Below, piece after piece: positions 5,219 through 22,663 of a stretch of DNA of 33,018 nt. The notes under the pieces are model-generated. The model was not told the origin of the DNA, searched no databases, and saw only the letters and a list, made by a program, of their open reading frames with translations. The stretch spans positions 1-33,018 of the forward strand of contig JAFMKA010000016.1 in assembly GCA_017853175.1 (NCBI GenBank), given 5' to 3'. Made by a program: the position numbers and the translations under genes. The stretch is from Steroidobacteraceae bacterium. GTDB taxonomy: Bacteria; Pseudomonadota; Gammaproteobacteria; Steroidobacterales; Steroidobacteraceae. The first letter of the stretch is position 1. The number at the start of each line of letters is the position of its first letter.

Positions 5219-5263
5219 TGGCAGCACCTCAAAAAATTAGCTGGTGGCGAAAGTCCGTTCGTA

Positions 5264-5306: not shown

Positions 5307-5427
5307 CAAATCGTAACTGATACGTTCGGGATAAGGGGAAGGTTTGGTTGGGTGCGCGCATCAGTTGGTCGCGTCTCCGACCGTCACCTCTAAAGCAGAA
5401 ATAACTATATTTTTTGGGGGTCGACGT

Positions 5428-8275: not shown

Positions 8276-8328
8276 GGGTCGGAGCGATACGCTTTTTAAA
8301 AAGTTGATATCGCCCGACCCTTTTTTTT
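8276..8328 (+). terminator. Intrinsic terminator after TonB receptor, possibly an attenuator
   Basis: GGGTCGG (8276-8282) pairs with CCGACCC (8314-8320), and after a single bulged A the stem continues as GCGATA with TATCGC. The loop contains a 12-nt palindrome CTTTTTAAAAAG (8292-8303). Eight T residues follow at 8321-8328. It begins 20 nt after the receptor stop and ends only 25 nt before the next start on the same strand, so it should reduce, rather than fully stop, transcription into the hydrolase gene. There is no T run on the opposite strand, so it works in the plus direction only. Confidence 0.9.
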
Positions 8329-8353
8329 GAAGAATTTTTGCGAGGGGGTTCGA

Positions 8354-9802
8354 ATGATGATGCTCAGCAGATTGAAAATGGCGTACGGCCTCATGGTGCT
8401 CATGATGTCGCCGCTGGCGGCGCTTGCCGGAGCCCCCAAGTTCGATCGACTGCCGACCGGGCAGCCATCGCAAGTGCCGTTCATCGGTTGGTATGAAGAT
8501 CTCGGGAAGAAGGGGTACGCCGAAGAGGAGTATATCGCCCGAGGTGAAGCGAACGTTTATGAATACGTTCGGGCGGGTGATCCGACCGTTCAGGTTCGCA
8601 TGCCTGCGGTTCCTTACGTGACCCGTGTCCTCGTTCGTTATCCGAAGGATCCATCGAAGTTCAACGGAACGGTCTATGTCGAAGTGCTGAATGCGACGGC
8701 GGGTTGGGATGGTGATCCGACATGGCAAGCGGCCGCAGATTATTTAATTCGTAGTGGGGCGGCCTGGGTGGGTGTCAGCACCAAGCCGGTGACAGTCGAT
8801 TTCCTGCGCGACAAGTGGGGTCGAGATAAATATCCGGCGCGCGATACCAGTCGATATGCATCGCTGTCGATGCCTCACTTCGGTCAGGTATGGGACATGA
8901 TGACCCACGTCGGAAAGTGGGTGAAAAGCGCGGGCGACCAAACTAATCCGTTACGTCAGTACGCCGTGAAAAGATCATTCATGGTTGGTTTCTCGCAGTC
9001 GGTGGCGTATCAGGTCACTTATGCAAACAGCTTTCACGAGCGTGAGCGGATGCCGGATGGCCGAGCCGTCTACGATGGCTATTATCTGGGTGCCGGTGGT
9101 TCACGTGCGAAGGACGTTACGGCGGCCACTCCGCAGACTGAAAGCCTAGGCGAGGGCGATCCGAGAAATCTGATCCGCGTCAACGCTCCAGTGGTGAGAC
9201 TCCAAACTCAGACCGAAGTCATCGGTTTCGGCTCTTATCGAGTTAGGCAGGACGATGCAGAGTTTCCGCTGGTGCGAACCTATGAAGTTGCCGGGGGTTC
9301 TCACGTCGATGCACATCTGGATGAGGTCGGTGGGTTTGCGCTGGCGAGAGATCTTGGGCTGCCCCCGAGCTTCTGCCCGAAACCTGATGCAGCCTACAAC
9401 CCGGTACGCACGGGGTTTTACCAGTCTGCCGCACTCGACATCCTTGATCGTTGGTCTCGAGGGACGACTCCGCCCGCCAGTCGTCTTTATTCATTGAGCG
9501 AAGAGAATGGCAAAACGGTGATGCTCAAAGACGCCGTGGGAAATGTGGTGGGCGGCGTCAGACCCCCAGAACTTGAAGCGCCTCGCGGCGTTTACAAAGA
9601 GTCGAACTCTGGTCCCGGATTTTGTCGCCTCTACGGTGGGTTCGTTCCTTTTGCGCCTGAGAAGCTTCGTGAGATGTATCCCGCCGCGGGTGCTTTTGTA
9701 TCGAAGTTCGACGCGGCCATCGCTAAAGCGGTCAATGAGCGATTCTTGCTCCCTGAAGATGCGGCGTTGTTGCGAGCGAGTCGTCCAGCGACGATCAATT
9801 AA
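8354..9802 (+). CDS. Exported alpha/beta hydrolase domain-containing protein (Abhydrolase_10-like)
   Basis: About 482 residues. A signal peptide (MMMLSRLKMAYGLMVLMMSPLAALAG) precedes an alpha/beta hydrolase fold resembling the 'alpha/beta hydrolase domain' family. The nucleophile elbow reads MVGFSQS with Ser214, and a late GGSHVD (His317) is a good candidate catalytic histidine. Other family-like stretches are FNGTVYVEVLNATAGWD and AAWVGVSTKPVTV. The protein should act in the periplasm as an esterase or lipase-like enzyme. GAGGGGG at 8342-8348 sets the start to one of the three consecutive ATGs at 8354, 8357 or 8360; TTG 8329 frame starts further up lie inside the terminator and are unlikely. 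It follows the TonB receptor and may process the ligand that receptor imports. The substrate is unknown. Confidence 0.88.
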   Translation: MMMLSRLKMAYGLMVLMMSPLAALAGAPKFDRLPTGQPSQVPFIGWYEDLGKKGYAEEEYIARGEANVYEYVRAGDPTVQVRMPAVPYVTRVLVRYPKDPSKFNGTVYVEVLNATAGWDGDPTWQAAADYLIRSGAAWVGVSTKPVTVDFLRDKWGRDKYPARDTSRYASLSMPHFGQVWDMMTHVGKWVKSAGDQTNPLRQYAVKRSFMVGFSQSVAYQVTYANSFHERERMPDGRAVYDGYYLGAGGSRAKDVTAATPQTESLGEGDPRNLIRVNAPVVRLQTQTEVIGFGSYRVRQDDAEFPLVRTYEVAGGSHVDAHLDEVGGFALARDLGLPPSFCPKPDAAYNPVRTGFYQSAALDILDRWSRGTTPPASRLYSLSEENGKTVMLKDAVGNVVGGVRPPELEAPRGVYKESNSGPGFCRLYGGFVPFAPEKLREMYPAAGAFVSKFDAAIAKAVNERFLLPEDAALLRASRPATIN

Positions 9803-9832: not shown

Positions 9833-10375
9833 TCACGGCTTCCACTCGACGAGTTCGAGTTGATAGCCGTCGGGGTCGGCGACATACGCGATGACCACGC
9901 TGGACGATTTCGACGAAACATAGGCTTTGGTCTCTCTCGGCGGACGCAAAACCTTGTGCCCCGCCGCGATCATTTTGCCGAGGGTCTCATCGAGATTTTT
10001 TATTGAAAACACGAGCGTGTGCAGTCCGGGATTGTTCGCAGAAATCGTTCGACCGGGCGTATAGACGAACGTCAATCCGTCTCTAAAGTTTTCTCCGCCA
10101 TGTGTGGTGTACACCTGTACCGAACCTTCGGGAGTGGGGCGCGTTCGGATGACTTCCTTGTATCCCAGAAACTCTGAATAAAAGCGCACTGACTTATCGA
10201 GGTCGCTGACATCGATTTTGGTGACCATGTATTCGAATGGCGGGCCCTCATCGGCATGAGCCGTTTTTGTTGTTGACGTAAACGCCAGAACAATTAAGAC
10301 GAGCCACGCAAAGCCGATATCGCTTGAGCGCGCCGTCTCACGCCGAGCTTCATGAAGATTTGCTGCATGTGCCAT
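9833..10375 (-). CDS. Exported VOC (glyoxalase/dioxygenase-fold) protein
   Basis: A 180-residue protein. The first 40 residues hold a hydrophobic signal-peptide core (GFAWLVLIVLAFTSTT) ending KTAHADEG, so export is likely, which is unusual for the VOC fold. The rest is one complete VOC unit: MVTKIDVSDLDKSVRFYSEFLGY, GLHTLVFSIKNLDETLGKMIAAGH, and the closing AYVADPDGYQLELVEW. The C-terminal glutamate of ELVEW is a typical metal ligand position. No GTG, TTG or ATG lies in frame between the ATG at 10375 and the signal-peptide core, so translation must begin inside the C-terminal coding part of the upstream LuxR gene, overlapping it by 82 bp in another frame. That suggests coupling to the regulator. 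The reaction cannot be assigned. Confidence 0.8.
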   Translation of the reverse strand: MAHAANLHEARRETARSSDIGFAWLVLIVLAFTSTTKTAHADEGPPFEYMVTKIDVSDLDKSVRFYSEFLGYKEVIRTRPTPEGSVQVYTTHGGENFRDGLTFVYTPGRTISANNPGLHTLVFSIKNLDETLGKMIAAGHKVLRPPRETKAYVSSKSSSVVIAYVADPDGYQLELVEWKP

Positions 10376-12957
10376 TTGACTGTCCCCTCAGTGATGCCTA
10401 GTCGTTCGCCGATCTCGCGATTTTGCAGACCCGCGGCGACCAAGGTGAGTATCTCACGCTCTTTGGGCGTGAGTGACGATTCACTAGGGCGTGTTACCTC
10501 AAAGCGCTGATCTTGCTTTGGCTCGATGGTCGTATTTGCAGAAAGGATGTTAATCGCTTTCTTCGCAAAGACGTCGATCTCGTTAGTGTGCGAGGCGGAA
10601 GCTCGATAACTTTCTAGTAAAAGCGTGCGTACGGGCGGAGCGGAGTCGACGATCTTGCGTAAAAACCCGCCTCGCGCAGCGCCGGCTAGGGCTTCGCGAA
10701 GAGATCGCCGCGCGTTTTGCATGTCGCCCGATAGTAGTAATGCGTGCGTCCGAATAAGTTGCCAGCGGATCAGGGTGCGTACGGCAAGATTACCCGCGCA
10801 GAAAGAAATCCAGGCGTTCGCGAGCCTTAAGACTTCCGTGTGTCGTGCCTTCGACAGCAGGATGCGTGCTCTGGCTGCATCGTGAATCTCAGTGTCGGAA
10901 TCCTTGGCTTTTCTCTTCGATGATGACGGCGTGACGAGCTCATCAAGGCTGGTGGGTGTGCCGACCGCGCTGAGTAGACGAACTTTTTCGCCCTGTAAAC
11001 ATCGACGAAGTCGATCGAGCTCCCGCTCCTCCGAGAAGCGGATGCCATCCTCTAGGGTCGTCAGTGCGCGATCGATATCACGCTCTGCCACGAATAGCTT
11101 GGCTTTTACGGTGTAGGCCGTCACTAGTTGATCGACTAAACCGAATTCCCGCGCGGCCGGCAAGTGCATGTCGATTAGACGAGACGCCTGTGCTCTGTCA
11201 TCTGCCTCGTAACAGAGATCGGCGAGATACAAACCCGAGAGCGCAGACAGGCCGGTTCGTACGCCCTCGAACCGCAGCGCGTCTTCTAGGCTTCGCTCGA
11301 GCAGTCGGTGCGCCACGGCGATTCTTCCGCACTCGACGTGGGCTGCTCCGAGTTCCGCTCTCACCCAGGGCGTGAATGTCACGATTCCGCAGCGCTCGGC
11401 AAGTTCCGATGCCTGGCCTTCGAGCTTGAGTATCTCCGTGATCCGATACTGACGGCGATAGGACGCAAATAGCTGTGCGTAGAGATTTAGTTTTAGCCCG
11501 TCGTTATTGGTACTGGAGAAGTCAGCGATGAGTTGCTGACACTCTTCATCACTGATGGGAACGGCATTGCGTGCTGATCGGAGGGTCAGCTCTCGGTGTT
11601 TTAGTAAGGGTGCAAGTTCTGCGTTCCGCAGGCGCGTAGAGCGCCTAGCCCCTGAGGTCCGAGAGAGCGATTTCCGTACGCACTCGAGTAACTCCTCGGC
11701 TTCGACAAATCGATACTGACGCGTTCGCCACCATGCGATCACGAGTGAGAGGTGTGGTAGTGAGCGTAGTGTCTTCGTCGGAATACCTGCCGTGTATTTC
11801 TCGAGTAGATGAATTTGACCGCGGTAAACCATGTCCTCGCAAAAGCGTTCGAGGTTTGCGGTATGGAAGCGAAGATTCCCGCTCAGCATGCTGTGATTGA
11901 GAGCTTCGGCGATTAAGCCATGATTGGCGTACCAACGACTCGCCCGTTGGTGCAGCCGTTTTTTCACAGTTGGTGACTGCGACTGAAGTCGTCGGTCTAG
12001 GAGTTCCCGTAAAAGCGGATTGAGTCGGTAAGTGTCGGGTTTGGCACGGTCGTCGCGAATGAACCCGCCCATTGTCCTCAGTGTCCGAAGATGTGTGTCA
12101 GAGTTACTAACTTCCGATACTGCGCTACAAGAGGAGATGCTCAGCGTCTCCAAGATGCTTATTTCTTCGAGAAATTTCAGGGTGCTCGCCGGAAGTTTTT
12201 CGAGTGTGGCTTCTTCGATGATACGAAACAGCACGTTTTGCGTTCGACGAAGGCTATCTAGTACAGCTTCACCGGGAGGTCGAACGGAAGTGTTGGCATC
12301 GAGGATGATTTTGATCGCGCCCACCCAGCCGCCCGTGCTATGGAGCAACGCGTCGCAATCGTCACGATTTAATCGCGCTCCGATGGCGTTGGCCATCGAG
12401 TCAATTTCATCAACGTCCAGCGCGATATCGTGGTCAGTGAACAAAAGTGTTCGACTGCGGGCCCATATCGCGGAGAGGGGGGTCGGCAAGTCGCCACGAC
12501 TCGAAAGTACGAATAAGCAATTTTCGAATGAGTGACGTATGAGCGTCGAGAGTTCCGATTGCATCGATTGAGGGAGCAACGGAGCGTCGTCGATCAGAAG
12601 CGCCACGCGCTGTGGCTGTTGAAGCAACGCGGTGCATGTCTCGATCGACGAGCGACTGTTGGTCGGTGTCGATTCACCCGAAATAAGTGAGGGCACGAGG
12701 ATGTCGGATAGGGATGCGCGCTCACCCGAGAGCTCGCCGGCCGAGATCCACAGGGTGAGGACCCCCATTTGCTGTAGTCGGTCATGCCATTCCCGCAGAA
12801 GAGTGGTTTTCCCGAACCAAGCCGGAGCGCTCGCGATGATCGCCGAGGGCAGGGGTGAGTCGAGCCATCCCGAGAGCCGGGGCCGACGCACGTGATGCGC
12901 TGACAACGGCGGTGGGCTCATGCCGCGATGGCGCGTTTTGTCGAAAGCAGTAGTCAT
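10294..12957 (-). CDS. MalT-type (LAL) LuxR-family transcriptional regulator
   Basis: An 887-residue signal-transduction ATPase of the STAND class. Near the N-terminus is a Walker A motif, APAWFGKTT (residues 44-52), with LLIDDAPLL as the probable Walker B. A long helical, TPR-like middle region fits the MalT-like sensor part. The C-terminus is a LuxR/GerE helix-turn-helix: LTPKEREILTLVAAGLQNREIGERLGITEGTVKWHMQQ and so on. Such proteins bind an inducer and ATP, multimerise, and activate promoters. The ATG at 12957 is preceded by AGGGGG (complement of 12962-12967) 4 nt upstream. The gene diverges from the six-gene redox operon starting at 13065, across 107 bp containing nested palindromes, making that operon the obvious target; the inducer is unknown. 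Confidence 0.93.
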   Translation of the reverse strand: MTTAFDKTRHRGMSPPPLSAHHVRRPRLSGWLDSPLPSAIIASAPAWFGKTTLLREWHDRLQQMGVLTLWISAGELSGERASLSDILVPSLISGESTPTNSRSSIETCTALLQQPQRVALLIDDAPLLPQSMQSELSTLIRHSFENCLFVLSSRGDLPTPLSAIWARSRTLLFTDHDIALDVDEIDSMANAIGARLNRDDCDALLHSTGGWVGAIKIILDANTSVRPPGEAVLDSLRRTQNVLFRIIEEATLEKLPASTLKFLEEISILETLSISSCSAVSEVSNSDTHLRTLRTMGGFIRDDRAKPDTYRLNPLLRELLDRRLQSQSPTVKKRLHQRASRWYANHGLIAEALNHSMLSGNLRFHTANLERFCEDMVYRGQIHLLEKYTAGIPTKTLRSLPHLSLVIAWWRTRQYRFVEAEELLECVRKSLSRTSGARRSTRLRNAELAPLLKHRELTLRSARNAVPISDEECQQLIADFSSTNNDGLKLNLYAQLFASYRRQYRITEILKLEGQASELAERCGIVTFTPWVRAELGAAHVECGRIAVAHRLLERSLEDALRFEGVRTGLSALSGLYLADLCYEADDRAQASRLIDMHLPAAREFGLVDQLVTAYTVKAKLFVAERDIDRALTTLEDGIRFSEERELDRLRRCLQGEKVRLLSAVGTPTSLDELVTPSSSKRKAKDSDTEIHDAARARILLSKARHTEVLRLANAWISFCAGNLAVRTLIRWQLIRTHALLLSGDMQNARRSLREALAGAARGGFLRKIVDSAPPVRTLLLESYRASASHTNEIDVFAKKAINILSANTTIEPKQDQRFEVTRPSESSLTPKEREILTLVAAGLQNREIGERLGITEGTVKWHMQQIFMKLGVRRRAQAISALRGSS

Positions 12958-12964
12958 CGGACCC

Positions 12965-13022
12965 CCTGTGCCGAGTATGAACTAGCGACCCTATCTTTAG
13001 ATAGGTCACAACCGCGCACAGG
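12965..13022. promoter_or_regulatory. Nested inverted repeats in the LuxR/redox-operon divergent promoter region
   Basis: CCTATCT-TT-AGATAGG (12990-13005) is a perfect 7-bp-arm palindrome. Around it, CCTGTGC (12965-12971) and GCACAGG (13016-13022) form a second perfect inverted repeat with nearly the same centre. The left outer arm overlaps the Shine-Dalgarno of the LuxR-type regulator. The location in the 107-bp gap between the divergent genes makes this a likely site for the LuxR-type protein itself or another dimeric regulator. I could not assign a clear -35/-10 pair. Confidence 0.6.
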
Positions 13023-13064: not shown

Positions 13065-14207
13065 ATGCTTTCGGTTTGCGGGCGAGAAGGGTTTCTTTCA
13101 TTACGGTTCGCTGTGATCTGGCTGCTTTCGTGGGTGGTCGGCATGGCCAGCATGGCGCAAGGGCAAGAGCGTTCGACCAACACGAGTCGCGTGATTGGCT
13201 TCGTGGTGACTACGGAGGCCCCGGGGCACTGGGAAAGTCCGGATGCCGGTGTCGAGTGCCCCGAAGGTTTGCACTTCACCGAAAAAGAAAATTGGGAGGC
13301 GATGAATCCCGTAGAGCGGGAGGAACGTCGAAGTCGGTTCGGTCATCGCTGGAACCGCGGACCCAACGGTGAGAATTCCACTGCCGTGCCTTGGGCCATT
13401 AAGGATCCTCTGCCGATTCGATTCGTGAAGAGCGACGTTGCGCTGGGTTTCAATCTCGACGGTACCGAAGACGGTCGAGAAACTCCGAACAGCTGCGGGC
13501 ATGCCAAGTTCAAAGATCCGGAGACGGGTCTGCCCGTAGACAACCAGTTGTATCGCGTGATGGGTTGCGCAAAAGGGTGGAGATCTTCCGGGGCTGCCGC
13601 AGGCTACCGGATGATGGAATTTCCAACCTATACGGCGAACCGACTGCTGCTCGAAATTTCCGGAGTCGATGATCTCATCGATGATTCCGAAGTCGAGGTG
13701 GCGTTATACAAGGGTCTCGACGACATTCCAAAGAAAAACAACGGTGAATTTCTGCCGGGTCTTCCTCACCGAGTGGATACACGTTTTCCCGTGATTGCGC
13801 GAACGTCAGGGAAAATCGAGGGGGGTGTGCTCACGATCAAGCCGGTCGAACATGCGCGCTTTCCGATGCGGTGGAATGTGCGTACCGGAACGCGTGACTG
13901 GTACGACATGCATCTGAGGTTACGACTCTCGACGGATGGCGCCGAGGGTTTGCTGGGTGGCTACCAGGACCTCGAGAAATATTGGCTGATGTATCGACGT
14001 GGCCTTGCGGTTTCCGTCGATAACTCCGCGTGGAGTCCGCCGTCCATGTATGCCGCAACCGAGGCGATGGCCGATGGACGACGCGATCCGAATACGGGGC
14101 GGTGTTCGGCGATCTCCTCATCGATGAAGTTGAAGGCAGTGCGTGCATTCATCGTGCACGCGGAGCCCGAATTCGATCAGGCTCTTTTCGATCTTCGTGG
14201 ATATTGA
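13065..14207 (+). CDS. Secreted protein of unrecognised family, first gene of the redox operon
   Basis: A 380-residue protein that I do not recognise. A signal peptide (LRFAVIWLLSWVVGMASMAQG) precedes a soluble, acidic-and-aromatic-rich body. Six cysteines are visible in the mature part or near it (contexts GVECPEG, PNSCGHA, VMGCAKG, GRCSAIS among them), none in a CxxCH heme motif. There are two sections: residues up to about 165 with repeated Trp/Arg-rich stretches (MNPVEREERRSRFGHRW), and a later part rich in beta-strand-like segments (RLLLEISGVDDLIDDSEVEVALYKG; MHLRLRLSTDGAEGLLGGY) resembling a carbohydrate-binding-like or jelly-roll layout. ATG 13065 follows GGGGGG (13055-13060). It ends 3 bp before the DUF1592 gene, so the two are almost certainly co-expressed. 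Confidence 0.8.
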   Translation: MLSVCGREGFLSLRFAVIWLLSWVVGMASMAQGQERSTNTSRVIGFVVTTEAPGHWESPDAGVECPEGLHFTEKENWEAMNPVEREERRSRFGHRWNRGPNGENSTAVPWAIKDPLPIRFVKSDVALGFNLDGTEDGRETPNSCGHAKFKDPETGLPVDNQLYRVMGCAKGWRSSGAAAGYRMMEFPTYTANRLLLEISGVDDLIDDSEVEVALYKGLDDIPKKNNGEFLPGLPHRVDTRFPVIARTSGKIEGGVLTIKPVEHARFPMRWNVRTGTRDWYDMHLRLRLSTDGAEGLLGGYQDLEKYWLMYRRGLAVSVDNSAWSPPSMYAATEAMADGRRDPNTGRCSAISSSMKLKAVRAFIVHAEPEFDQALFDLRGY

Positions 14208-14210
14208 CCC

Positions 14211-15845
14211 ATGAAAAAATTAAAGACCGCCCTGATCGTCGGTTGCTGCGTGCTCGCATTCGGCCTGTCGCCCGTCGCATCTCCTGAGGGCTCCTCCAGC
14301 TTGCGCTTGCTGAGTCAGTCTCAGTATGCCGATAGCATCACGGCTGTGTTCGGTGCAGCCGTCGTGCCGAACGTCAGGTTTGCACCAGTTCAGAGAGTCG
14401 AGGGTCTGCTGAGCGCTGGCGCACGAACGGCCGGCGTCACCTCGGGCTCTCTCGAGCCGATGTTTCGAAGCGCAGAGGACGTCGCGCTGCGGGTGATTCA
14501 TCCCGACTATCGCGATCGTCTCATTCCCTGTCGCCCAGGCGACTCCGCGAAGCGAGACGACGGTTGTGCACGGATATTTCTCTCCAGCGTTGGCCGAGCA
14601 CTCTATCGCCGTGAGATCAGCAGTCGAGAAATTGATCGAGTGCTACGAATCGCGGGTGATGCTGCCGATGAAAGTCGGGATTTCTACTCGGGAATCGCTG
14701 CTGCGCTCGCGTACATGCTGTCTTCGCCGGACTTTCTCTATGTTCGCGAAACGGTGGAGCCGGACCCTTCAAAACTCGGGAAATGGCGGCTCGACGGAGC
14801 CTCGCGAGCGTCGAGACTGAGTTTCTTTCTTTGGAATTCCGGTCCGGACGACGTGTTGTTGCGGGCGGCGGCGCGCGGCGAACTGCACGACCGCCGCGGG
14901 ATCGAGCGTCAAGTCAAACGCATGCTCGCGTCTGATCGAGTCCAGCAGGGCACGAGAGCATTTTTCTCGGACATGTTGGCCGTCGAAGGTTTCGATCTCA
15001 TCGCAAAGGATCCGATCATCTATCCCGCGTTCACCAGTCGAGTGGTGAGCCAGGCGAGAGAGCAACTCCTGCGAACGTTGGTGGATCACACGGTCGTCCG
15101 TGATCTCGACTATCGAGATCTGTTCGTCACTCGAAAGACATTCATGAGCCGCGATCTGGCGGTGATCTACCAAGTTCCAGTTCGTGTGGCGCCGGATCAA
15201 TGGATGGAGTACGAGTTTCCGGAGGGAAGTCCACGAGCGGGAGTTTTGACCCTTGCCGGCTTTCTCGCCCGATACGCCCACCCGGGCCGTACCTCGCCGA
15301 CCAACCGGGGTCGAGGACTTCGCGAAACGCTGCTTTGTCAGCGGGTCCCCGACCCGCCGCCGAACGTCAATTTTTCGTTGTTCGAGGATCAAGAACATCA
15401 ATTCAAGACGGCTCGTGAGCGTCTCGATGCTCATGCGACGAATCCGGTATGCGCGGCATGTCATCGACTGACAGATCCGATCGGCCTCGTACTCGAACAT
15501 TTTGACGGCGCAGGGCAATACCGCGAGACGGAAGACGGCGCCTTTATCGATACCCGCGGAAAAGTGGCCGGTGTTTCAGTGCGGGATGCCAATCAGCTGG
15601 GTGAAGCCCTGAAGGGTGATCCGGCGGTGTCCTCGTGCGTTGTAAAGAGACTGCTTTCGTTCGGAACGGGACGAAAGCTAACGGAAGCCGATCAGCCTGT
15701 GATCTCCCGACTCGGTGACGAGTTCGTCGATACCGGTTATCGATTCAAGGCGCTTCTGAAATCGATCGCGACGAGTGAAGAGTTTCTTTCAGCGGACTCG
15801 CCGCTCCAACCGTTGCCGAGGCAGGAGGTTGCACGTGCTAATTAA
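14211..15845 (+). CDS. DUF1592/DUF1588-type exported protein with a CxxCH heme motif
   Basis: A 544-residue exported protein showing, in order, the chain of domains first noted in planctomycetes and acidobacteria: a degenerate DUF1587 (RLLSQSQYADSITAVFG), DUF1595 (SVGRALYRREISSREIDR), DUF1592 (SRLSFFLWNSGPDDVLL), DUF1588 (GVLTLAGFLARYAHPGRTSP followed by GRGLRETLLCQ), and DUF1585 at the C-terminus (SCVVKRLLSFGTGRKLTEAD). The heme-type motif CAACH lies at 414-418, in NPVCAACHRLTDPIG, which suggests covalent heme c and periplasmic location. The N-terminal MKKLKTALIVGCCVLAFGLSPVA is a signal peptide; IVGC resembles a lipobox but leaves a very short hydrophobic core. Function is not established for the family. 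It partners the next gene, DUF1552, with which such proteins are commonly paired. Confidence 0.9.
   Translation: MKKLKTALIVGCCVLAFGLSPVASPEGSSSLRLLSQSQYADSITAVFGAAVVPNVRFAPVQRVEGLLSAGARTAGVTSGSLEPMFRSAEDVALRVIHPDYRDRLIPCRPGDSAKRDDGCARIFLSSVGRALYRREISSREIDRVLRIAGDAADESRDFYSGIAAALAYMLSSPDFLYVRETVEPDPSKLGKWRLDGASRASRLSFFLWNSGPDDVLLRAAARGELHDRRGIERQVKRMLASDRVQQGTRAFFSDMLAVEGFDLIAKDPIIYPAFTSRVVSQAREQLLRTLVDHTVVRDLDYRDLFVTRKTFMSRDLAVIYQVPVRVAPDQWMEYEFPEGSPRAGVLTLAGFLARYAHPGRTSPTNRGRGLRETLLCQRVPDPPPNVNFSLFEDQEHQFKTARERLDAHATNPVCAACHRLTDPIGLVLEHFDGAGQYRETEDGAFIDTRGKVAGVSVRDANQLGEALKGDPAVSSCVVKRLLSFGTGRKLTEADQPVISRLGDEFVDTGYRFKALLKSIATSEEFLSADSPLQPLPRQEVARAN
15823..15828 (+). promoter_or_regulatory. 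Shine-Dalgarno that fixes the DUF1552 start at GTG 15835
   Basis: AGGAGG, 6 nt before GTG 15835, is a consensus ribosome-binding site lying inside the end of the DUF1592 gene. It argues against the upstream in-frame GTG at 15775 and gives an 11-bp overlap between the two genes. Confidence 0.85.
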
Positions 15846-17199
15846 ATCAGGACGACTCTCGGAGCAGGAGTCGAAACTTTCCCGGCGGTCCGTCCTTCGC
15901 GGTTTCGTCGGAGCGAGTGCCGTATCCGTGCCGTTGCCGCTGCTCAACTGTTTTCTTTCCGATAGTGGGGCTGCGCTGGCTGCGACGGGTCAGGCTCTCC
16001 CGGTGCGCTTCGGGACTTGGTTTTGGGGGCTTGGCATGAATCGCCGGGTTTTCGTCCCCAAAAAAATCGGCGCAGATTTCGATTTCCCAGAGGAAATCTC
16101 AGTCCTCGAGCCGTTACGGCGGCATCTCAATCTATTCACTGGCTTCTCGGTTCCCATCGACGGTAATCCAAATCTTTGCCACTACTCCGGATGGGTTGCG
16201 CTTCGATGCGGTGCGACGCCGAAGTCGAGAAGCGATCTGCCTGGAGAAAGTTTGGACAACCCCATCGCCGAGGCAATAGGGGGTCGTACGCCGTTTCGTA
16301 TGATCAACGTTGCCGCAACGGGCAACCCCCGAGACAGTTACAGCTTTCGAAATTCGGATTCGGTGAATCCACCCGAGATTTCGGCGGTAGATCTCTATCA
16401 GAAGATGTTCACCAAGGTTTCGCCTGAGGCGGGTGCCGCAGCCGATCCGCGAATGCTTTTGCGCCGCAGCGTGCTTTCAGGAGTCGCCGAAGACGCGCGT
16501 AGCTTGAGTCGACAACTGGGTGCCGAAGATCGATCTAAGCTGGATCAGTTCTTGACCTCGGTGAGGGAGCTCGAAACACGCCTCGAGTGGCAGCTTGCTC
16601 CGGCGGACGTCTCGGGCGTTTGTCCCAAGGCGCCGGGAGAGCCGAACAGTGTAGGTGTCGGACTCGATTATCGATTGGTTGAGTCACGACACACCGCGAT
16701 GGCAGATCTTCTCGTTCTCGCTCTCGCCTGTAACAAGACGAGCGTGTTCAACGTGCTCTATTCGAACTCGGCGTCGCTGATCACTCGGGAAGGCTTGGAT
16801 AGCGTTCACCACAACATCACGCACGAAGAGCTCTACGATCCGAAGCAAGGTATTCAACTGCAGAGCTCCTGGTTCTTGCGAGAATCTTTCAAGGCCTTTG
16901 CCTATTTCATCGGTGCGCTAGCTCGTCAAACCGAGGGCGCCGGTAGTCTGATCGACAACGTGCTGGTCTATGCCCACTCGGACAACGAGGATGCGAAGAC
17001 CCACGTGCTCAACGGCACGCCGATGTTTACCGTCGGACGGGCGGGCGGCCGTCTGCGGACGGGTTTGCACATCGATGGTGGCGGAGATGTTGCCACCCGA
17101 CTCGGTTATACCGTGCAGCGCGTCATGGGGCTTCCAGTCGCCGAGTGGGGCGTGGGTTCTCTGCGCACGAATCGCGAAATCACGGAGATTCTGGTTTGA
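15835..17199 (+). CDS. DUF1552 exported protein with twin-arginine signal
   Basis: A 454-residue DUF1552 protein. The N-terminus has SRRSVLRGFVGASAV with R17-R18, a twin-arginine (Tat) signal, then PLPLLNCFLSDSGAALA before the mature part. Typical DUF1552 text follows: PVRFGTWFWGLGMNRRVFVPK, LNLFTGFSVPIDGNPNLCHYSG, SAVDLYQKMFT, LDQFLTSVRELETRLEWQ, SVHHNITHEELYD and VLVYAHSDNEDAKTHVLNGTPMFTVG. The family has distant resemblance to alkaline-phosphatase/sulfatase-like DUF1501 proteins, but no reaction is established. Tat export implies folding, perhaps cofactor loading, before transport. The start is set by AGGAGG at 15823-15828 and overlaps the DUF1592 gene by 11 bp; the end overlaps the next start as TTGA. 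It is expected to act with the DUF1592 heme protein. Confidence 0.9.
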   Translation: MLIKSGRLSEQESKLSRRSVLRGFVGASAVSVPLPLLNCFLSDSGAALAATGQALPVRFGTWFWGLGMNRRVFVPKKIGADFDFPEEISVLEPLRRHLNLFTGFSVPIDGNPNLCHYSGWVALRCGATPKSRSDLPGESLDNPIAEAIGGRTPFRMINVAATGNPRDSYSFRNSDSVNPPEISAVDLYQKMFTKVSPEAGAAADPRMLLRRSVLSGVAEDARSLSRQLGAEDRSKLDQFLTSVRELETRLEWQLAPADVSGVCPKAPGEPNSVGVGLDYRLVESRHTAMADLLVLALACNKTSVFNVLYSNSASLITREGLDSVHHNITHEELYDPKQGIQLQSSWFLRESFKAFAYFIGALARQTEGAGSLIDNVLVYAHSDNEDAKTHVLNGTPMFTVGRAGGRLRTGLHIDGGGDVATRLGYTVQRVMGLPVAEWGVGSLRTNREITEILV

Positions 17200-18482
17200 G
17201 CGGGAGAGTCGTTAGATTTCTCTTCGTCCTGCTCTTCGCAAACGTCGCAAACGATGCGGCTTTGGGTTCGCCGATCGTCGTGGGTGCACTTGGTGCAGCG
17301 GACTTTTCGGAGGGTCCTCCGCCGTCCGGTATTGCGGTCGGTCGCGCTGATTCGGTCGGTCCGATTTACGTGACGTCTTCGGGTATGACGCTCTATGTAA
17401 ACGCTCTCGATACTCCCAACGGAGTTTTTGGGTGCACGGACACCCGATACGAAAAGACGGGTGGTGCCGACGGTTATCCGTTGCCGCGAGCGAATAGTCG
17501 ACGGACGTGCATCGAGAAATGGATGCCGTTGACGGCGACTTCAGATGCCGTTGCGACACGACCCTGGTCGGTTGTGACTCGACCCGATGGCCGACATCAA
17601 TGGGCTTACGAGGGTCAGCCGGTTTACCGCTCTCCTCGCGATCAACGTCCCGGCGATATCAACGGCACGATGGGACTGAGTCGTTACGGAGCGTGGCGGG
17701 TGCTGCCTGTTCCTCTCCGTTTGCCACCGGGTACGAAACTGATTCGAAAGGTGGATGGATTGATGTTGGCCTCTGCCGAAGACAGTCGGTTGTTGCTGAC
17801 GCCGTCGACATCTCGTAGTCGTGTGGTATCGGGTGTCACGCCTCTTTACGCGCCCGAGATGGCGGCAGGAGCCGATGTCGTGTCTGCTCGAGATGGTCGA
17901 AAGCAATGGGCGTTCCGTGGTGCTCCGCTTTATCGAGTGACCAGTGATTCAGCGACCTCGTTGATCCAGTCTCTCGTGGCGTCGAAGGCTTGGCGACCGT
18001 TGCTTGTTCAACCCGCGAGTCCTCGTCCGAAATTTGTGACCCTGCATATGTCGGTGCCAGAGATCGGATGGGTGTTTGCCGATTCGAACGGGCGAACTTT
18101 GTATGCCATGTACTGCCACGATCAGGTGCCCGACCGTTTGTCCTGCGATGAGGTCGGTGATCCGGCGGCGCACTGGTCTGCGCTCTGCGGTGACGCGAAA
18201 TCCTGTTCGCGAGAGTGGAAGCCCGTGCTCGCAGAGGCGAATGCGGAATCAGTGGGCGCATGGGCGATCGCCGAGGTCCCGTACCCGCAATTTGTCGAGC
18301 CTACGGGGGCGTACGGCGAGGACGTTCCGACGGTTCGAGCGTGGACGTATCACGGTCGGCCGGTCTACACGTTCGCCGCCGACGAGTCGCCCGGCGATGT
18401 GCAGGGTCACGGCATCGAAGCGAAGGTCAGTGGATTCGGAGCGATTACGGTTCTGGGTGAGGAGTTTCCGGTTCTTCCGTGA
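17196..18482 (+). CDS. Four-repeat COG4315-like exported protein (Yx(FWY)xxD family)
   Basis: About 428 residues. The TTG at 17196 overlaps the previous stop (TTGA), has GGAG 8 nt upstream, and begins a signal peptide (SGRVVRFLFVLLFANVANDAALGS). The mature protein resembles the 'predicted lipoprotein with Yx(FWY)xxD motif' family (COG4315), but in several copies: GMTLYVNALD; WAYEGQPVYRSPRDQRPGD; WAFRGAPLYRVTSDSA (degenerate); GRTLYAMYCHD; and WTYHGRPVYTFAADESPGD, the only canonical YxFxxD. Cysteine pairs around the first and fourth copies (FGCTDT with RRTCIEKW; SALCGDAKSCSREW) could form disulfides. No lipobox was seen. Family function is not established, though relatives often sit near redox proteins, as here. 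Usual members have two repeats in about 130-170 residues, so this one is a double-length version. Confidence 0.82.
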   Translation: MSGRVVRFLFVLLFANVANDAALGSPIVVGALGAADFSEGPPPSGIAVGRADSVGPIYVTSSGMTLYVNALDTPNGVFGCTDTRYEKTGGADGYPLPRANSRRTCIEKWMPLTATSDAVATRPWSVVTRPDGRHQWAYEGQPVYRSPRDQRPGDINGTMGLSRYGAWRVLPVPLRLPPGTKLIRKVDGLMLASAEDSRLLLTPSTSRSRVVSGVTPLYAPEMAAGADVVSARDGRKQWAFRGAPLYRVTSDSATSLIQSLVASKAWRPLLVQPASPRPKFVTLHMSVPEIGWVFADSNGRTLYAMYCHDQVPDRLSCDEVGDPAAHWSALCGDAKSCSREWKPVLAEANAESVGAWAIAEVPYPQFVEPTGAYGEDVPTVRAWTYHGRPVYTFAADESPGDVQGHGIEAKVSGFGAITVLGEEFPVLP

Positions 18483-18496
18483 GCTTGGAGGGAATG

Positions 18497-19312
18497 ATGC
18501 GGATTGGAAAGTGGGTCGTTCTGTTGGCGTGTTGCTCATCGATCGTTTGGTCGGTGGAGCCTGGCGAACAGATCGAATATCGAAAATCGGTCATGAAAAC
18601 CCTCGACGAGGGCGTCGTGGCGTATCAAACCGCGTTGAAACTCGGCGCACCGCAATCTGAAATCTCAAGACACCTCAAGTCGTTGGCTTTGACATCGGGT
18701 CAGATCAAAAAAGCCTTTGAGCCGCGTGTCGAGGGCGGGTACGCAAAACCCGATGTTTGGAAAAAATGGTCCGATTTTTCAAAACGCGCAGACGCGCAAA
18801 GCGCGAGGCTCATGCAGTTGTCGGAGTTAGCCGCCTCGGGGCCATTGTCCGGCGGGAACGACCCGAAGACGGCACTCGGTTGTTCGGGGTGCCATGACGC
18901 GTTCCGGCAGTCTTCGGCAAAGACGGCGTCGTCAGCGACCAAAGCCGCTCAGACCGCTGATTCGATCGAGTATCGCCAGCAACTGATGCGTGTCATCGAT
19001 GCTCAAACATCGGCCATCGGCCAGATTCTTTCCGGAACCATTCCTGAGGATAACTTCGCCTCCCATCTCGAAGTCGTTTCTCTGACGGCGAGTTTGGCCT
19101 CAGGAGCGTTCGACCGTGGGGCACCGGGTGGTGAGGCGCTGCCGAAGGTGTGGCAAGAGAAAGCCCGGTTTTTGCGGACGATGCAGGATTTCTCTGAAAA
19201 CGCCATCAAAGCCTCTCGAACCGCGCGGCAGGACGGCAAGGATGCGGCGGCCGTGATGGTCATCGACGCGTTGCCCTGTCGTCAATGTCACGACGTCTAC
19301 CGACGAAAATAG
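18497..19312 (+). CDS. Tandem-domain cytochrome c'-like diheme protein
   Basis: About 271 residues, exported (MRIGKWVVLLACCSSIVWS). Two similar helical-bundle halves each begin with a matching stretch (IEYRKSVMKTLDEGVVAYQT; IEYRQQLMRVIDAQTSAIGQ) and end in a heme-binding CxxCH: CSGCH at 129-133 and CRQCH at 261-265, each followed by a D(A/V)(F/Y)R. Heme near the C-terminus of a four-helix bundle is the cytochrome c' pattern; single-domain members are about 130 residues, so this is an internal duplication. Cytochromes c' bind NO or CO or transfer electrons; here electron transfer is suggested by the neighbours. GGAGGG at 18487-18492 favours ATG 18497 (or 18494); a GTG at 18479 making a GTGA overlap is possible. 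The gene lies 11 bp before the triheme cytochrome. Confidence 0.88.
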   Translation: MRIGKWVVLLACCSSIVWSVEPGEQIEYRKSVMKTLDEGVVAYQTALKLGAPQSEISRHLKSLALTSGQIKKAFEPRVEGGYAKPDVWKKWSDFSKRADAQSARLMQLSELAASGPLSGGNDPKTALGCSGCHDAFRQSSAKTASSATKAAQTADSIEYRQQLMRVIDAQTSAIGQILSGTIPEDNFASHLEVVSLTASLASGAFDRGAPGGEALPKVWQEKARFLRTMQDFSENAIKASRTARQDGKDAAAVMVIDALPCRQCHDVYRRK

Positions 19313-19323
19313 GTTTGAAGTCC

Positions 19324-20595
19324 ATGCGGCTAAACATCGGGTTGGTGTTGCTGCTTTTCGGCTTGGTGTCGTGCGCAGAGGATGCGCCTGTCCTCGAACG
19401 TGATCTCCGCAACGTCTCGGAACTCGATATCGAGCATGGCCGATATCTCGCGTCGGTCGGTAATTGCGTGTCATGCCATACCTCCAAAGAGGGGCCCGCC
19501 CTCGGAGGCGGGGTTTCTTTCGCAGTGACGGGAGGGCTGTTCGACTCGCCTATCGGACACATCTACTCGAGTAATATTTCGCCCGATTCAGAAACGGGGA
19601 TAGGCGCGTGGACGCTCGGCGAATTCGCGAGAGCCTTGCGAGAAGGCGTATCGAGGGACGGTCGACATCTTTATCCCGTTTTCCCCTATACGCATTTTTC
19701 GAGTCTGACGGATCGCGACATCTTCGCCTTGTTCGTATTTCTTCGGAGGTCAGAGCCCGTTCGCTATGAGCCTCCGAAAAACGAGCTGCCGTTCCCGCTG
19801 AACGTTCGATCGATGCTGGCCCTATGGAAGTTTTTCGACGGGAGTGGCGAGCCGTTTGAGTACGACGAATGGAAATCCGAGGCCTGGAATCGCGGCGCCT
19901 ATCTCACGTTAGGTCTCGGCCATTGCGGCGCGTGTCATTCGCCGAGAAATGTCATGTTAGCCGAGCGCAGTAGTGCGCGACTCAGCGGGGGGTTCTTGTT
20001 TGACGAGGTAGAGCCCGGGAAGATTCGTCGCTGGTCGGCGGTCAATTTGACTCCCGCCAAAGCCGGATTGCAGAGCTGGTCTACCAACGATATCGCCAAC
20101 TATTTACGTACTGGACATTCTTCGAAAGCGGGTTCTTTTGGGCCCATGAATAAAGTGATCGCGGGCGGTACACAAAATCTGACGCCAGAGGATGCCGCGG
20201 CAATCGCCGAATTTTTGAAGAGTTTGTCGCCGATCGAGGAGAAGGCGGGCGCGCCACCGTCGGCGGGGACAAGAAAGATCGGCTCCGATGTTTATGAAGA
20301 GTACTGCTCGGAGTGTCATAAAGCGTCGGGTCGAGGGGCTTTCATGAAAGCGCCGCCGCTTGTGGGCAGCGCAATCGTTCAGTCCGCTGATTCGTCGTCG
20401 TTGATCAATGTCATTCTCTACGGTGCACACCCCGATAGTCGGCTACCCGCACCTTTTGGCGCCTGGGAATCGATGAAGGGGTTTCGCCAAAAACTCGACG
20501 ATACGCAGGTCGCCGCCTTGGCGTCTTATCTCAGAGCGGCCTGGGGACACGATGCCTCGTCGGTGGAGCCGGAGGACGTCAAACGTCAGCGCTGA
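19324..20595 (+). CDS. Triheme c-type cytochrome lipoprotein (AdhB/gluconate dehydrogenase cytochrome-like)
   Basis: About 423 residues. The N-terminus MRLNIGLVLLLFGLVSC is a lipoprotein signal with lipobox LVSC (Cys17), so the protein should be membrane-tethered. Three cytochrome c domains follow with CVSCH (48-52), CGACH (201-205) and CSECH (328-332). The arrangement, with GNCVSCHT, then FARALREGVSRDGRHLYPVFPYTHFSSLTDRDIFALFVFL and LGHCGACHSPRN, is that of the cytochrome subunits of membrane-bound alcohol, gluconate and sorbitol dehydrogenases, which pass electrons to quinone or oxidase. No dehydrogenase of those types is in the window, so its partner here is probably the DUF1592/DUF1552 pair. 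ATG 19324 gives the lipobox; an upstream GTG frame start lies inside the cytochrome c' gene. It is the last gene of the operon. Confidence 0.92.
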   Translation: MRLNIGLVLLLFGLVSCAEDAPVLERDLRNVSELDIEHGRYLASVGNCVSCHTSKEGPALGGGVSFAVTGGLFDSPIGHIYSSNISPDSETGIGAWTLGEFARALREGVSRDGRHLYPVFPYTHFSSLTDRDIFALFVFLRRSEPVRYEPPKNELPFPLNVRSMLALWKFFDGSGEPFEYDEWKSEAWNRGAYLTLGLGHCGACHSPRNVMLAERSSARLSGGFLFDEVEPGKIRRWSAVNLTPAKAGLQSWSTNDIANYLRTGHSSKAGSFGPMNKVIAGGTQNLTPEDAAAIAEFLKSLSPIEEKAGAPPSAGTRKIGSDVYEEYCSECHKASGRGAFMKAPPLVGSAIVQSADSSSLINVILYGAHPDSRLPAPFGAWESMKGFRQKLDDTQVAALASYLRAAWGHDASSVEPEDVKRQR

Positions 20596-20666: not shown

Positions 20667-21890
20667 ATGATTCAGTTTGATTTGATCCAGACCCTCGCTT
20701 TAGGCGGGGTCGCGCTCTTCGTGGGTTTTTCGCTTATTAAGGCGATCCCGGTGCTCGGTCGATACAACATTCCGGCGGCGGTCGTCGGCGGTTTGCTTGT
20801 CGCGTTGCTTATCACGTCGTTACGAGTCACCGACACCGCAACCCTGAGTTTCGACACCAGCCTGCAGACGCCGCTCATGACGGCGTTCTTCACCTCGATC
20901 GGATTGAGTGCGAGTGTGTCTCTGCTACGGGCGGGTAGTGGCCAAGCGCTCGTGTTTCTTGCGCTCGCGAGCATTCTGGCGGTGGTTCAAAATCTCATCG
21001 GGATCGCCGTAGCCATGGCGTTCGGTGAAGCGCCACTACTCGGCGTGCTCATGAGCTCGACGGCGCTGACAGGGGGTCCTGCGACGGCGCTCGCGTTCGC
21101 GCCTCAGTTCGCGGCAGCGGGAGTTCCCGCAGCCGAGAGTCTCGCCATCGCTGCGGCCATGGCCGGTATCGTCCTCGGCGGTTTGTTCGGCGGGCCGATC
21201 GCAACTCGGTTACTCGTTCGGCATGGGCTAGAAAGGTCCGTTCGTCGCACGACGCGTGATGCGTCCGAATCCGTCGAGGTCACGACGCGTCTTCCCGATC
21301 GTGCCGATCAAGAGCAGGGAGACGAGGATGGTGTCCGCGAGGCTCTGAAGGCGTTGACGGTATTGCTCGTCGCCATGGCGTTCGGCGGGGTCTTGAGCGC
21401 CGGATTCGTTCAGGCAGGACTGACCCTTCCGGGATACGTGGGTGCGATGCTCGTGGGCGCTTTGATCCGCAACATCGACGATAGGACCGGTTGGATCCGC
21501 ATACCTCAAGACCTCGCGTCGAAAGTGGGTGCGGCGTGTCTTACGCTCTTTCTCGTCGTCGCACTGATGAATCTCAAACTGTGGGAGCTTGCCTCGTTGG
21601 CCTTGCCTCTCATCGTGAATCTCGTGCTGCAGTTGATCGTCGTGGCGTTGTTTTGTGCTTGGGTGGTGTTTCGGGTGATGGGTCGCGACTACGACGCGGC
21701 CGTGATGAGCGGCGGCTTCACGGGGTTCATGCTCGGCACGACGGCCAATGCGATGGCGGTAATGCGTACGATCGTCGAGCGTTTCGGGCCTGCGCCCCGC
21801 GCATTTTTGGTGGCGCCCATCGTCGGCGCGTTTTTCATCGATTTCACTAATGCAGTGATCATCACCACCTTCCTCAATTTCTTGTCATGA
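20667..21890 (+). CDS. GltS-family (ESS) sodium-coupled carboxylate symporter
   Basis: A 407-residue membrane protein with about ten hydrophobic segments, matching the sodium/glutamate symporter GltS family. Marks are IPAAVVGGLLVALL early on, FFTSIGLSASVSLLRAG, the first-half loop LTGGPATALAFAP (the GGxGTA-like re-entrant motif) and the second-half counterpart SGGFTGFMLGTTANAMA, with a hydrophilic central loop (about residues 195-225). Length is typical. Glutamate is the textbook substrate, but its 4-bp ATGA overlap with aroD hints at a shikimate-pathway-like carboxylate; that is inference. It starts 71 bp after the redox operon and probably has its own promoter. Confidence 0.9.
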   Translation: MIQFDLIQTLALGGVALFVGFSLIKAIPVLGRYNIPAAVVGGLLVALLITSLRVTDTATLSFDTSLQTPLMTAFFTSIGLSASVSLLRAGSGQALVFLALASILAVVQNLIGIAVAMAFGEAPLLGVLMSSTALTGGPATALAFAPQFAAAGVPAAESLAIAAAMAGIVLGGLFGGPIATRLLVRHGLERSVRRTTRDASESVEVTTRLPDRADQEQGDEDGVREALKALTVLLVAMAFGGVLSAGFVQAGLTLPGYVGAMLVGALIRNIDDRTGWIRIPQDLASKVGAACLTLFLVVALMNLKLWELASLALPLIVNLVLQLIVVALFCAWVVFRVMGRDYDAAVMSGGFTGFMLGTTANAMAVMRTIVERFGPAPRAFLVAPIVGAFFIDFTNAVIITTFLNFLS

Positions 21891-22663
21891 CGAGTTTCCA
21901 TCCTCTTTCGGTTCGCGGAAGAACTCTCGGCAACGGGAGAGAGCCGGCTGTATGCCTGTCGCTCATGACGGCGGATCTCACGACGCTCGACTCTGATGTC
22001 GCGGCGATCTTGGCGCTTGCGCCTGATGTGATCGAGTGGCGTGTCGATCATTTTCGAGCGGCAAACTCAGCGGACGAGGTGTTTGCAGCAGCCGCTCGAC
22101 TGCGTAAGGCGGTTGGCGAACTTCCGTTGATCTTTACGTTTCGTTCAGAGCTCGAGGGTGGTGCGAAAACGGGTCTCGAGCCTTCAGCGGTCGGTCAACT
22201 GTTCGCGAGAGCCGCGACATCAAAGAGTTTCGAGTTCATCGATCTCGAGTTATCGCTACCCGTGACGATTATTAACGCGGTGATCGATATGGCTCACCAG
22301 AGCGGCGCTCAGGTCATCGTCTCATCGCATCATTTTGATCGTACGCCGTCGGAAGAGGAAATCTTCGGCCTGCTCGCAAGGGGGGCTGAAGTTGGAGCGG
22401 ACGCGGCCAAGGTGGCGGTGATGCCGGAAACCGCCGCCGATGTGATCCGTTTGCTATCTGCGACGGAGCGGGCCTCCCGCACGCTGTCACTGCCGCTCAT
22501 CACGATGGCGATGGGCTCTCTCGGTGCGATCACTCGTATCTTTGGTGGTCTTTTCGGCTCTGCACTGACTTTTGCAGCGGGCGAGCGAAGTTCTGCGCCC
22601 GGTCAGTTACCCATCGGTACTTTGCGAGAGATTTTCGCGGCTGTCGATCAATTAGAAAAATAG
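21887..22663 (+). CDS. aroD: Type I 3-dehydroquinate dehydratase
   Basis: A 258-residue class I (Schiff-base) dehydroquinase, which converts 3-dehydroquinate to 3-dehydroshikimate in the shikimate or quinate pathway. The active-site residues are all present: DVIEWRVDHF (E50, R52), FTFRSELEGG, VIVSSHHFD with the general base His148, and DAAKVAVMP with the Schiff-base Lys175; the His-Lys distance of 27 equals that of the E. coli enzyme. MAMGSLGAITRI and the GSALTFAAG end are also standard. The ATG overlaps the stop of the GltS-like gene (ATGA), so translation is coupled. Its 3' end overlaps the convergent sulfatase gene by 16 bp. Many bacteria use a type II enzyme for biosynthesis, so a catabolic role is possible. 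Confidence 0.95.
   Translation: MTSFHPLSVRGRTLGNGREPAVCLSLMTADLTTLDSDVAAILALAPDVIEWRVDHFRAANSADEVFAAAARLRKAVGELPLIFTFRSELEGGAKTGLEPSAVGQLFARAATSKSFEFIDLELSLPVTIINAVIDMAHQSGAQVIVSSHHFDRTPSEEEIFGLLARGAEVGADAAKVAVMPETAADVIRLLSATERASRTLSLPLITMAMGSLGAITRIFGGLFGSALTFAAGERSSAPGQLPIGTLREIFAAVDQLEK

Follow-up and report, generated by a model that had tools for sequence, protein, structure and literature searches.

We showed that six adjacent genes of a Steroidobacteraceae bacterium form a real, conserved module, in which a divergent form of the DUF1592/DUF1552 protein pair is accompanied by its likely electron partners. The genes (ORF1 to ORF6; ORF, open reading frame) occupy positions 13065-20595 of the stretch of 33,018 nucleotides analysed in this study, hereafter called the window, which is part of contig JAFMKA010000016.1 of assembly GCA_017853175.1 (the draft genome amounts to 1.92 Mb, with a completeness of 81%). 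They encode an exported protein without a family assignment (ORF1), a DUF1592 protein with a single heme motif CxxCH (ORF2), a DUF1552 protein (ORF3), a Lipoprotein_15 protein (ORF4), a class II cytochrome c (ORF5) and a triheme cytochrome c (ORF6). We observed that these genes are associated, that the association is restricted to one divergent subfamily, that the genes have diverged in parallel and that the type of cytochrome matches the kind of electron link. Our preferred reading, to which we assign a probability of about 0.48, is that they specify a dedicated multi-subunit periplasmic redox module, with a core of DUF1592, DUF1552, ORF1 and Lipoprotein_15 and an electron link made of the class II cytochrome and the triheme cytochrome (or, elsewhere, cytochrome b561).

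The association is evident from the surroundings of 64 copies of ORF1 in related loci, most of which were selected through ORF1 matches and some of which also supplied sequences for the profiles. On the same strand and within 8 kb of these copies, DUF1552 was found in 59 cases, DUF1592 in 58, Lipoprotein_15 in 54, the triheme cytochrome in 23 and a class II cytochrome in 14; the respective numbers for the 35 copies with 8 kb or more of sequence to either side were 34, 34, 28, 17 and 12. When DUF1552 was taken as the starting point, Lipoprotein_15 was present within 5 kb of all 19 divergent matches and DUF1592 of 18, the single exception lying at a contig end. The original prediction, made from the letters of the window, had proposed that these genes belong together and that the DUF pair has the cytochromes as its companions; the co-occurrence check did not refute this and the neighbourhood counts support it.

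A control with canonical DUF1552 genes of the same order gave a different picture. None of 17 canonical copies from 15 loci (taken from 36 canonical-like matches, with the partial match G024:C288 counted as canonical-like) had Lipoprotein_15, ORF1 or the triheme cytochrome within 8 kb. DUF1592 was near 16 of the 17, and one locus contained a weak match to a class II cytochrome. The order harbours whole families of such paralogues, and the pairs can occur in many copies, as in genomes G027 and G055, with 13 and 14 DUF1552 matches, nearly all of them canonical. The members of the divergent module have also changed together: between-locus distances correlated with r of 0.87-0.96 among ORF1, DUF1592, DUF1552 and Lipoprotein_15 (n 34-44) and of 0.57-0.73 between these and the triheme cytochrome (n 23-24), values that were reached in none of 2000 permutations, were calculated for loci with a single ORF1 and still include a contribution of species history.

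The loci also differ in their cytochromes. Both domains of ORF5 belong to the class II cytochromes c (c' and c-556), with which they share PF01322 and a CxxCH motif near each C-terminus. ORF5 differs from cytochrome c' in carrying two domains in one chain, and alignment of its C-terminal domain to the Alcaligenes protein showed that the distal Leu, presumably Leu16, is replaced by Met. Among 25 aligned class II domains, 15 have Met at the distal position, including both in the window, and 10 have Leu, Phe or Tyr. The Met domains come from eight loci (the window, L034, L060, L119, L124, L132, L135 and L137), every one of which also contains the triheme gene; the domains lacking Met come from L101, L142-L146 and four plasmid loci, in which no triheme gene was found. 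The kind of cytochrome therefore goes with the kind of link. The name cytochrome c', chosen in the original prediction, is thus doubtful for the window and fits the loci without Met better; the Met-containing domains of the window are what we take to be c-556-like. In L119, L124, L132 and L135 two tandem single-domain class II genes were found, as against one two-domain protein in the window and in L034, which points to a fusion or a fission.

A second form of the module was identified in a protein search of plasmid records, which detected the divergent DUF1552 on 13 sphingomonad megaplasmids (12 from Sphingobium and one from Novosphingobium), together with two more distant matches. On all 13, a gene for cytochrome b561 (PF01292 in the two plasmid proteins scanned) is located 491-796 bp from DUF1552, and in 11 the annotation places a cytochrome c or c' gene right at the border of that for b561. 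On the TomTYG65 plasmid the profile itself detects a class II cytochrome at this border, and the sole class II match of the Novosphingobium plasmid lies about 3.7 kb upstream of DUF1552. ORF1 adjoins the DUF pair on 12 of the 13 plasmids. With the Sphingobium b561 as query, phmmer (E <= 1e-4) returned nothing from the window or from the 64 related loci. In our view, the pairing of Met with the triheme cytochrome and these plasmids speak most strongly for the cytochromes being part of the same system as the DUF pair. The ORF1 gene of the Sphingobium herbicidovorans plasmid (L162, 8986-10331) is annotated as two overlapping pieces and may be broken or mis-sequenced.

The triheme protein ORF6 has its closest relatives among the cytochrome subunits of membrane-bound dehydrogenases for glucose, fructose and alcohol (8hdd_B, E 5.9e-70; 7w2j_C, 2.4e-67; 8gy2_B, 8.3e-64), to which it is homologous over approximately 390 residues with three CxxCH motifs. 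In contrast to these subunits, its match stops about 50 residues short of the C-terminal end of the solved chains, it has an N-terminal lipobox, and no gene for a flavin or pyrroloquinoline quinone (PQQ) dehydrogenase was found in the window. In eight genomes, 13 of the 16 triheme matches with E <= 1e-95, that of the window included, lie within 8.1 kb of ORF1; of the remaining three, one is 13.7 kb from ORF1 and two are on contigs without ORF1. None of the 14 weaker matches in these genomes is near ORF1, and the triheme cytochrome of the module therefore looks like a subfamily of its own. It had been described as a lipoprotein, which holds for ORF6 with its lipobox LVSC and less well for its relatives, as a lipobox was visible by reading in only two of 30 triheme proteins (a loose pattern marked seven).

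As for the DUF pair itself, a model of the DUF1592 protein built from a 58-sequence alignment was of high predicted quality (pLDDT, predicted local distance difference test, 90.5), and a Foldseek comparison with the Protein Data Bank (PDB) returned no match (best E 1.5). The CxxCH motif (C414, C417, H418) is invariant in all 58 sequences, as is H408, ten residues before H418, which we would guess to be the second heme ligand. Canonical DUF1592 proteins have two CxxCH motifs in 15 of 16 cases (the sixteenth lies near a contig end), and all 11 rows examined contain an insert of 140-211 amino acids ahead of DUF1595; the divergent proteins, ORF2 among them, have one motif, and ORF2 has no insert. 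In three canonical proteins scanned (cut to the profile match), DUF1587 precedes the core and one also has a PSCyt1 match; a weak DUF1587 match is retained in the two divergent relatives scanned and none was seen in ORF2. C376 and C476 are conserved in 47 of 47 divergent sequences; in the canonical proteins, cysteine is not the prevailing residue at these two positions. A loose lipobox pattern marks 38 of 61 DUF1592 proteins. DUF1592, a one-heme protein whose predicted fold has no match in the PDB, is the remaining candidate for the redox catalyst. We also asked whether ORF1 could represent the insert missing from DUF1592, detached as a separate gene, and this was rejected (hhalign probability 0.2%).

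The divergent DUF1552 proteins retain the twin arginine of the twin-arginine translocation (Tat) signal in 61 of 61 sequences, as do 17 of 17 canonical homologues. The canonical motif HxxSHH (S in 16 and each of the two H in 17 of 17) has been converted to HxxTHEE in the divergent form (T in 60, H in 61 and the two E in 58 and 59 of 61). In the alignment, the two subfamilies share H136, S232, D252, R264, E267, H346, H350 and H410 without exception, and D161, D394 and H432 almost without exception. A structural model of modest quality (14 sequences; pLDDT 65.8, pTM, predicted template modelling score, 0.70) gave 21 PDB matches with E <= 0.001 (best probability 1.00, E 8.6e-5), all of which we take, judging by their titles, to be members of the alkaline-phosphatase superfamily (sulfatases, LtaS/LtaP). 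The superposition is loose (identity 8-11%, query TM score 0.34-0.38 and root-mean-square deviation 10-17 in the top 12 rows), and the predicted DUF1552 structure thus resembles, if loosely, the alkaline-phosphatase/sulfatase superfamily best. The original prediction saw in DUF1592 and DUF1552 a joint oxidoreductase, a view that this match, loose as it is, does not support.

Several observations weigh against our preferred reading. The cytochromes are near only part of the loci (the triheme in 17 and the class II protein in 12 of the 35 fully flanked copies), and L101 and L142-L146 have a class II cytochrome with neither a triheme nor a b561 gene found. No Met is invariant in DUF1592, the best being M238, which is Leu in 6 of 47 divergent rows. 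In L136 and L126 (in the latter on opposite strands) ORF1 and Lipoprotein_15 were found with no DUF pair nearby, and these two genes can therefore stand as an independent unit. L107 and L109 each contain an ORF1 copy that lies 3-5 kb from the DUF pair, ORF1 of L059 is accompanied by a TonB receptor only, and on the TomTYG65 plasmid ORF1 is 200 kb away from the pair. A PQQ dehydrogenase gene is present in three of the 30 triheme-bearing loci, in L134 directly upstream of the triheme gene. Two further loci, L104 and L061, are truncated by contig ends.

A rival idea is that the DUF pair is not a redox enzyme at all: DUF1552 would be a hydrolase, as the match of its model to the alkaline-phosphatase superfamily would suggest, and the cytochromes would serve a separate PQQ or GMC dehydrogenase acting on the released alcohol. 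PQQ dehydrogenases occur in 7 of the 64 related loci, so that the earlier statement that no known dehydrogenase accounts for the cytochromes is true of the window (no dehydrogenase family, PQQ and GMC types included, among its 26 ORFs scanned) and not of all its relatives; carboxylesterases, Abhydrolase_10 proteins and MFS carriers are also encoded nearby. We nevertheless consider this explanation decidedly unlikely. DUF1592 itself carries the invariant CxxCH, the only triheme gene found in the 81% complete genome of the window sits in this operon, and 27 of the 30 triheme-bearing loci have no member of the PQQ cluster (GMC genes were not sought locus by locus). The genome does encode one PQQ-propeller match and one GMC match, both on other contigs.

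The preferred reading, that of a redox module, may be outlined as follows. A TonB receptor would bring in a small organic compound, on which the DUF1592/DUF1552 core would act together with ORF1 and Lipoprotein_15, DUF1552 possibly being a metallo-hydrolase-type partner of the one-heme DUF1592. Electrons would pass between the DUF1592 heme, the class II cytochrome ORF5, the triheme cytochrome ORF6 and the inner membrane, and on the sphingomonad plasmids cytochrome b561 would take the place of the triheme protein. The formation of a complex, the role of DUF1592 as the redox site, the departure of electrons from the substrate and the small organic nature of the latter are what we infer from these data. 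That the cytochromes are the electron route of the DUF pair, as had been proposed earlier, is a reasonable hypothesis. A more specific version, which we put forward tentatively and regard as somewhat doubtful, would make DUF1592 the redox subunit of heme enzymes of a new class, with a fold not represented in the PDB and a phosphatase-type partner; in this lineage the canonical multidomain protein would have been taken apart into a multi-subunit assembly with an exchangeable link to the quinone pool, consisting either of a Met-ligand cytochrome and the triheme protein or of a c'-like cytochrome and b561.

Comparison with known systems places the module beside the canonical planctomycete-type PSCyt/PSD and DUF1552 proteins, with which it shares the DUF1595-DUF1592-DUF1588-DUF1585 core with CxxCH and the adjacent DUF1552. 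It differs from them in having one heme motif and not two, no insert and HxxTHEE in place of HxxSHH, and in the addition of ORF1, Lipoprotein_15 and separate cytochromes. According to excerpts of the literature (the form in which this and the other papers cited here were consulted), the PSCyt/PSD (PSCyt3) genes of freshwater Verrucomicrobia usually stand beside two gene families whose functions have not been assigned (PMC5615132), the names of the DUF1592-type domains are merely listed in PMC6004670, PMC7789669 and PMC2754498, and a comparable pair, DUF1501/DUF1800, travels with bacterial chitin synthases (PMC5122149). We found no account of the present gene set, and no reaction for DUF1592/DUF1552 pairs, in the open-licence papers searched, preprints excluded.

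A further likeness is that to Cbp2D of Cellvibrio japonicus, in which an X183 cytochrome is joined to DUF1587 and to an X132 domain bearing a second CxxCH (PMC8981238); in the related Teredinibacter proteins TERTU_2913 and TERTU_3803 (X183, X132), a small Pfam domain, printed as DUF1687, marks the start of X132 (PMC10916295). This architecture resembles that of canonical DUF1592 proteins, the two being likened by domain description and not by sequence, and these descriptions suggest that X132 may correspond to the DUF1592 core. ORF2 differs from Cbp2D in having no match to a carbohydrate-binding module, X158 or X183 (its only matches are to the domains of the DUF1592 core and, weakly, to DUF1800), and the passages on Cbp2D name no DUF1552 partner. 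Should the correspondence be correct, the window would hold a protein of this kind reduced to its core, which bears on the role of Cbp2D in the breakdown of cellulose. Since the pair is now tied to set partners and identifiable electron links, on sphingomonad plasmids among others, an anonymous family becomes accessible to assay.

The electrons could move in either direction. The relatives of the triheme protein take electrons from substrates; b561 and Cbp2D would also fit a supply to DUF1592. It is thus conceivable, if unlikely in our opinion, that the flow is reversed. The class II cytochrome would then receive electrons from quinol or from the respiratory chain and hand them to DUF1592, which would combine them with oxygen or peroxide in order to attack a substrate or prime an oxidative enzyme, a role that has been proposed for Cbp2D. 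The presence of b561 beside the class II cytochrome in the Sphingobium modules is consistent with such a flow, as is the hypothesis that Cbp2D and Cbp2E, which are essential for growth on insoluble cellulose, cut cellulose directly (PMC12542752, in part). It is opposed by the closeness of ORF6 to subunits that accept electrons from dehydrogenases, by the lack of any lytic polysaccharide monooxygenase family among the matches of the 26 window ORFs scanned or among the 25 families seen most often in the 118 neighbour genes scanned, and by the fact that the equation of X132 with the DUF1592 core was itself deduced.

The nature of the substrate was approached through the neighbouring genes. TonB receptors occur within 8 kb of 33 of 63 ORF1 copies and of 22 of the 34 with full flanks, the window being left out of both counts. 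No glycoside hydrolase, which might have indicated a polysaccharide, was present among the 25 commonest Pfam families of the 118 neighbour genes scanned (of 266 selected unlabelled ones). The plasmids of tomato-root Sphingobium, and the probable identity of the order as Steroidobacterales, suggested a steroid or saponin; a term search of the mBio tomatine paper (PMC10653915), seen in part, found no mention of DUF proteins, cytochromes or TonB. Class II cytochromes without the distal Met can bind gases, and with 10 of the 25 domains of this type and varying regulators beside the module, a device for sensing, assembly or detoxification (e.g. a sink for nitric oxide or peroxide) may be imagined instead of a catabolic enzyme. 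This seems very improbable to us in view of the distal Met of both window domains and 13 others and of the frequency of TonB receptors; several genomes moreover have up to four copies of ORF1, which would better suit several substrates.

Among 396 genomes sampled from the order, the ORF1 profile matched 32 (in 13 of 72 genera); it also matched one of 369 in the class sample (the genome of the window) and two of 398 in the phylum sample (this genome and G525, from outside the class), as well as three of 61 relatives of G525, itself included; all these counts are lower bounds, as the first look scores few candidates per genome. All six families in an order identical to that of the window were found in L034, a locus of the gammaproteobacterial metagenome-assembled genome RHO1_bin_72 with an ORF1 65% identical, and L060 has all six in another order. 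Sequence-based searches for solved relatives gave nothing significant for the ORF1, DUF1552 and DUF1592 profiles (best E 0.4, 0.62 and 0.14, respectively) and nothing at E <= 1 for Lipoprotein_15.

The reading of ORFs and Pfam domains bore out the six tightly packed plus-strand genes, the spacing and the six CxxCH motifs on three proteins described at the outset (one in ORF2, two in ORF5 and three in ORF6; Table 1). DUF1592 (8.6e-29) and DUF1588 (6.2e-29) in ORF2 and DUF1552 (3.6e-47) in the adjacent ORF3 all exceed the curated cut-off. ORF1 and ORF2 are separated by 3 bp. The best start of ORF3 is a GTG at 15835 preceded by AGGAGG, which yields an 11-bp overlap with ORF2, and that of ORF5 is an ATG at 18494 preceded by GGAGGGA; the true start of ORF4 is probably further in than the first GTG at 17145, and the overlaps grow if the starts of the longest ORFs are used. 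Export signals were judged by eye: ORF3 has the Tat motif SRRSVLRG, ORF6 its lipobox, and ORF1, ORF2, ORF4 and ORF5 have Sec-like N-termini. Searches of the genome of the window detected one DUF1552, one triheme protein (ORF6) and three domains of class II cytochromes, of which ORF5 accounts for two.

Table 1. Features of the module and its surroundings in the window.
Feature	Position	Strand	Description
TonB-dependent receptor	5344-8256	+	beyond the MalT-type gene
Abhydrolase_10 protein	8327-9802	+	beyond the MalT-type gene
MalT/LuxR-type regulator	10294-12957	-	divergent from ORF1; linked to the module by position only
Inverted repeat CCTATCT-TT-AGATAGG	12990-13005		perfect 7-2-7 repeat in the 107-bp divergent intergenic region
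ORF1	13065-14207	+	exported protein, 380 amino acids including signal; no Pfam/NCBIfam match above cut-off; conserved core member
ORF2	14211-15845	+	DUF1595-DUF1592-DUF1588-DUF1585; one CxxCH (C414, C417, H418)
ORF3	15835-17199	+	DUF1552 (HXXSHH), Tat signal, divergent HxxTHEE form
ORF4	17145-18482	+	Lipoprotein_15 (secreted repeat), 4 Pfam stretches
ORF5	18494-19312	+	two class II cytochrome c domains (Pfam cytochrome c', PF01322), two CxxCH
ORF6	19285-20595	+	triheme cytochrome c; Cytochrom_C in 3 stretches; LVSC lipobox

The palindrome between the divergent genes is a possible operator for the MalT/LuxR-type regulator. Conservation of this site was checked in L034, where the palindrome differs from that of the window. 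The regulator had been thought to govern the module, a suggestion that found no support, as a MalT homologue labels none of the 64 related loci; the regulators present elsewhere include AraC in Sphingobium, TetR, and histidine kinase and response regulator genes. In L034 the six-gene operon is immediately preceded, on the same strand, by genes for an Abhydrolase_10 protein and a TonB receptor.

Other genes near the module were also recorded. A glyoxalase-family gene is located beside it in four of the loci without distal Met (L101, 6819-7298; L146, 4773-5333; L142, 10322-10852; L143, 10664-11125) and near it in the window (9833-10375). Downstream, overlapping genes for a sodium/glutamate symporter (GltS) and a type I 3-dehydroquinase (AroD), at 20667-22663, start 71 bp after ORF6 and are possibly co-transcribed; neither is annotated in any of the 64 related loci, and both were rejected as core members. 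Next to the TonB receptor gene, a DUF3604 protein with a near-full model match (E 1e-237) is encoded at 3359-5227, in a minus-strand run together with a rotamase and HupE/UreJ-like proteins.

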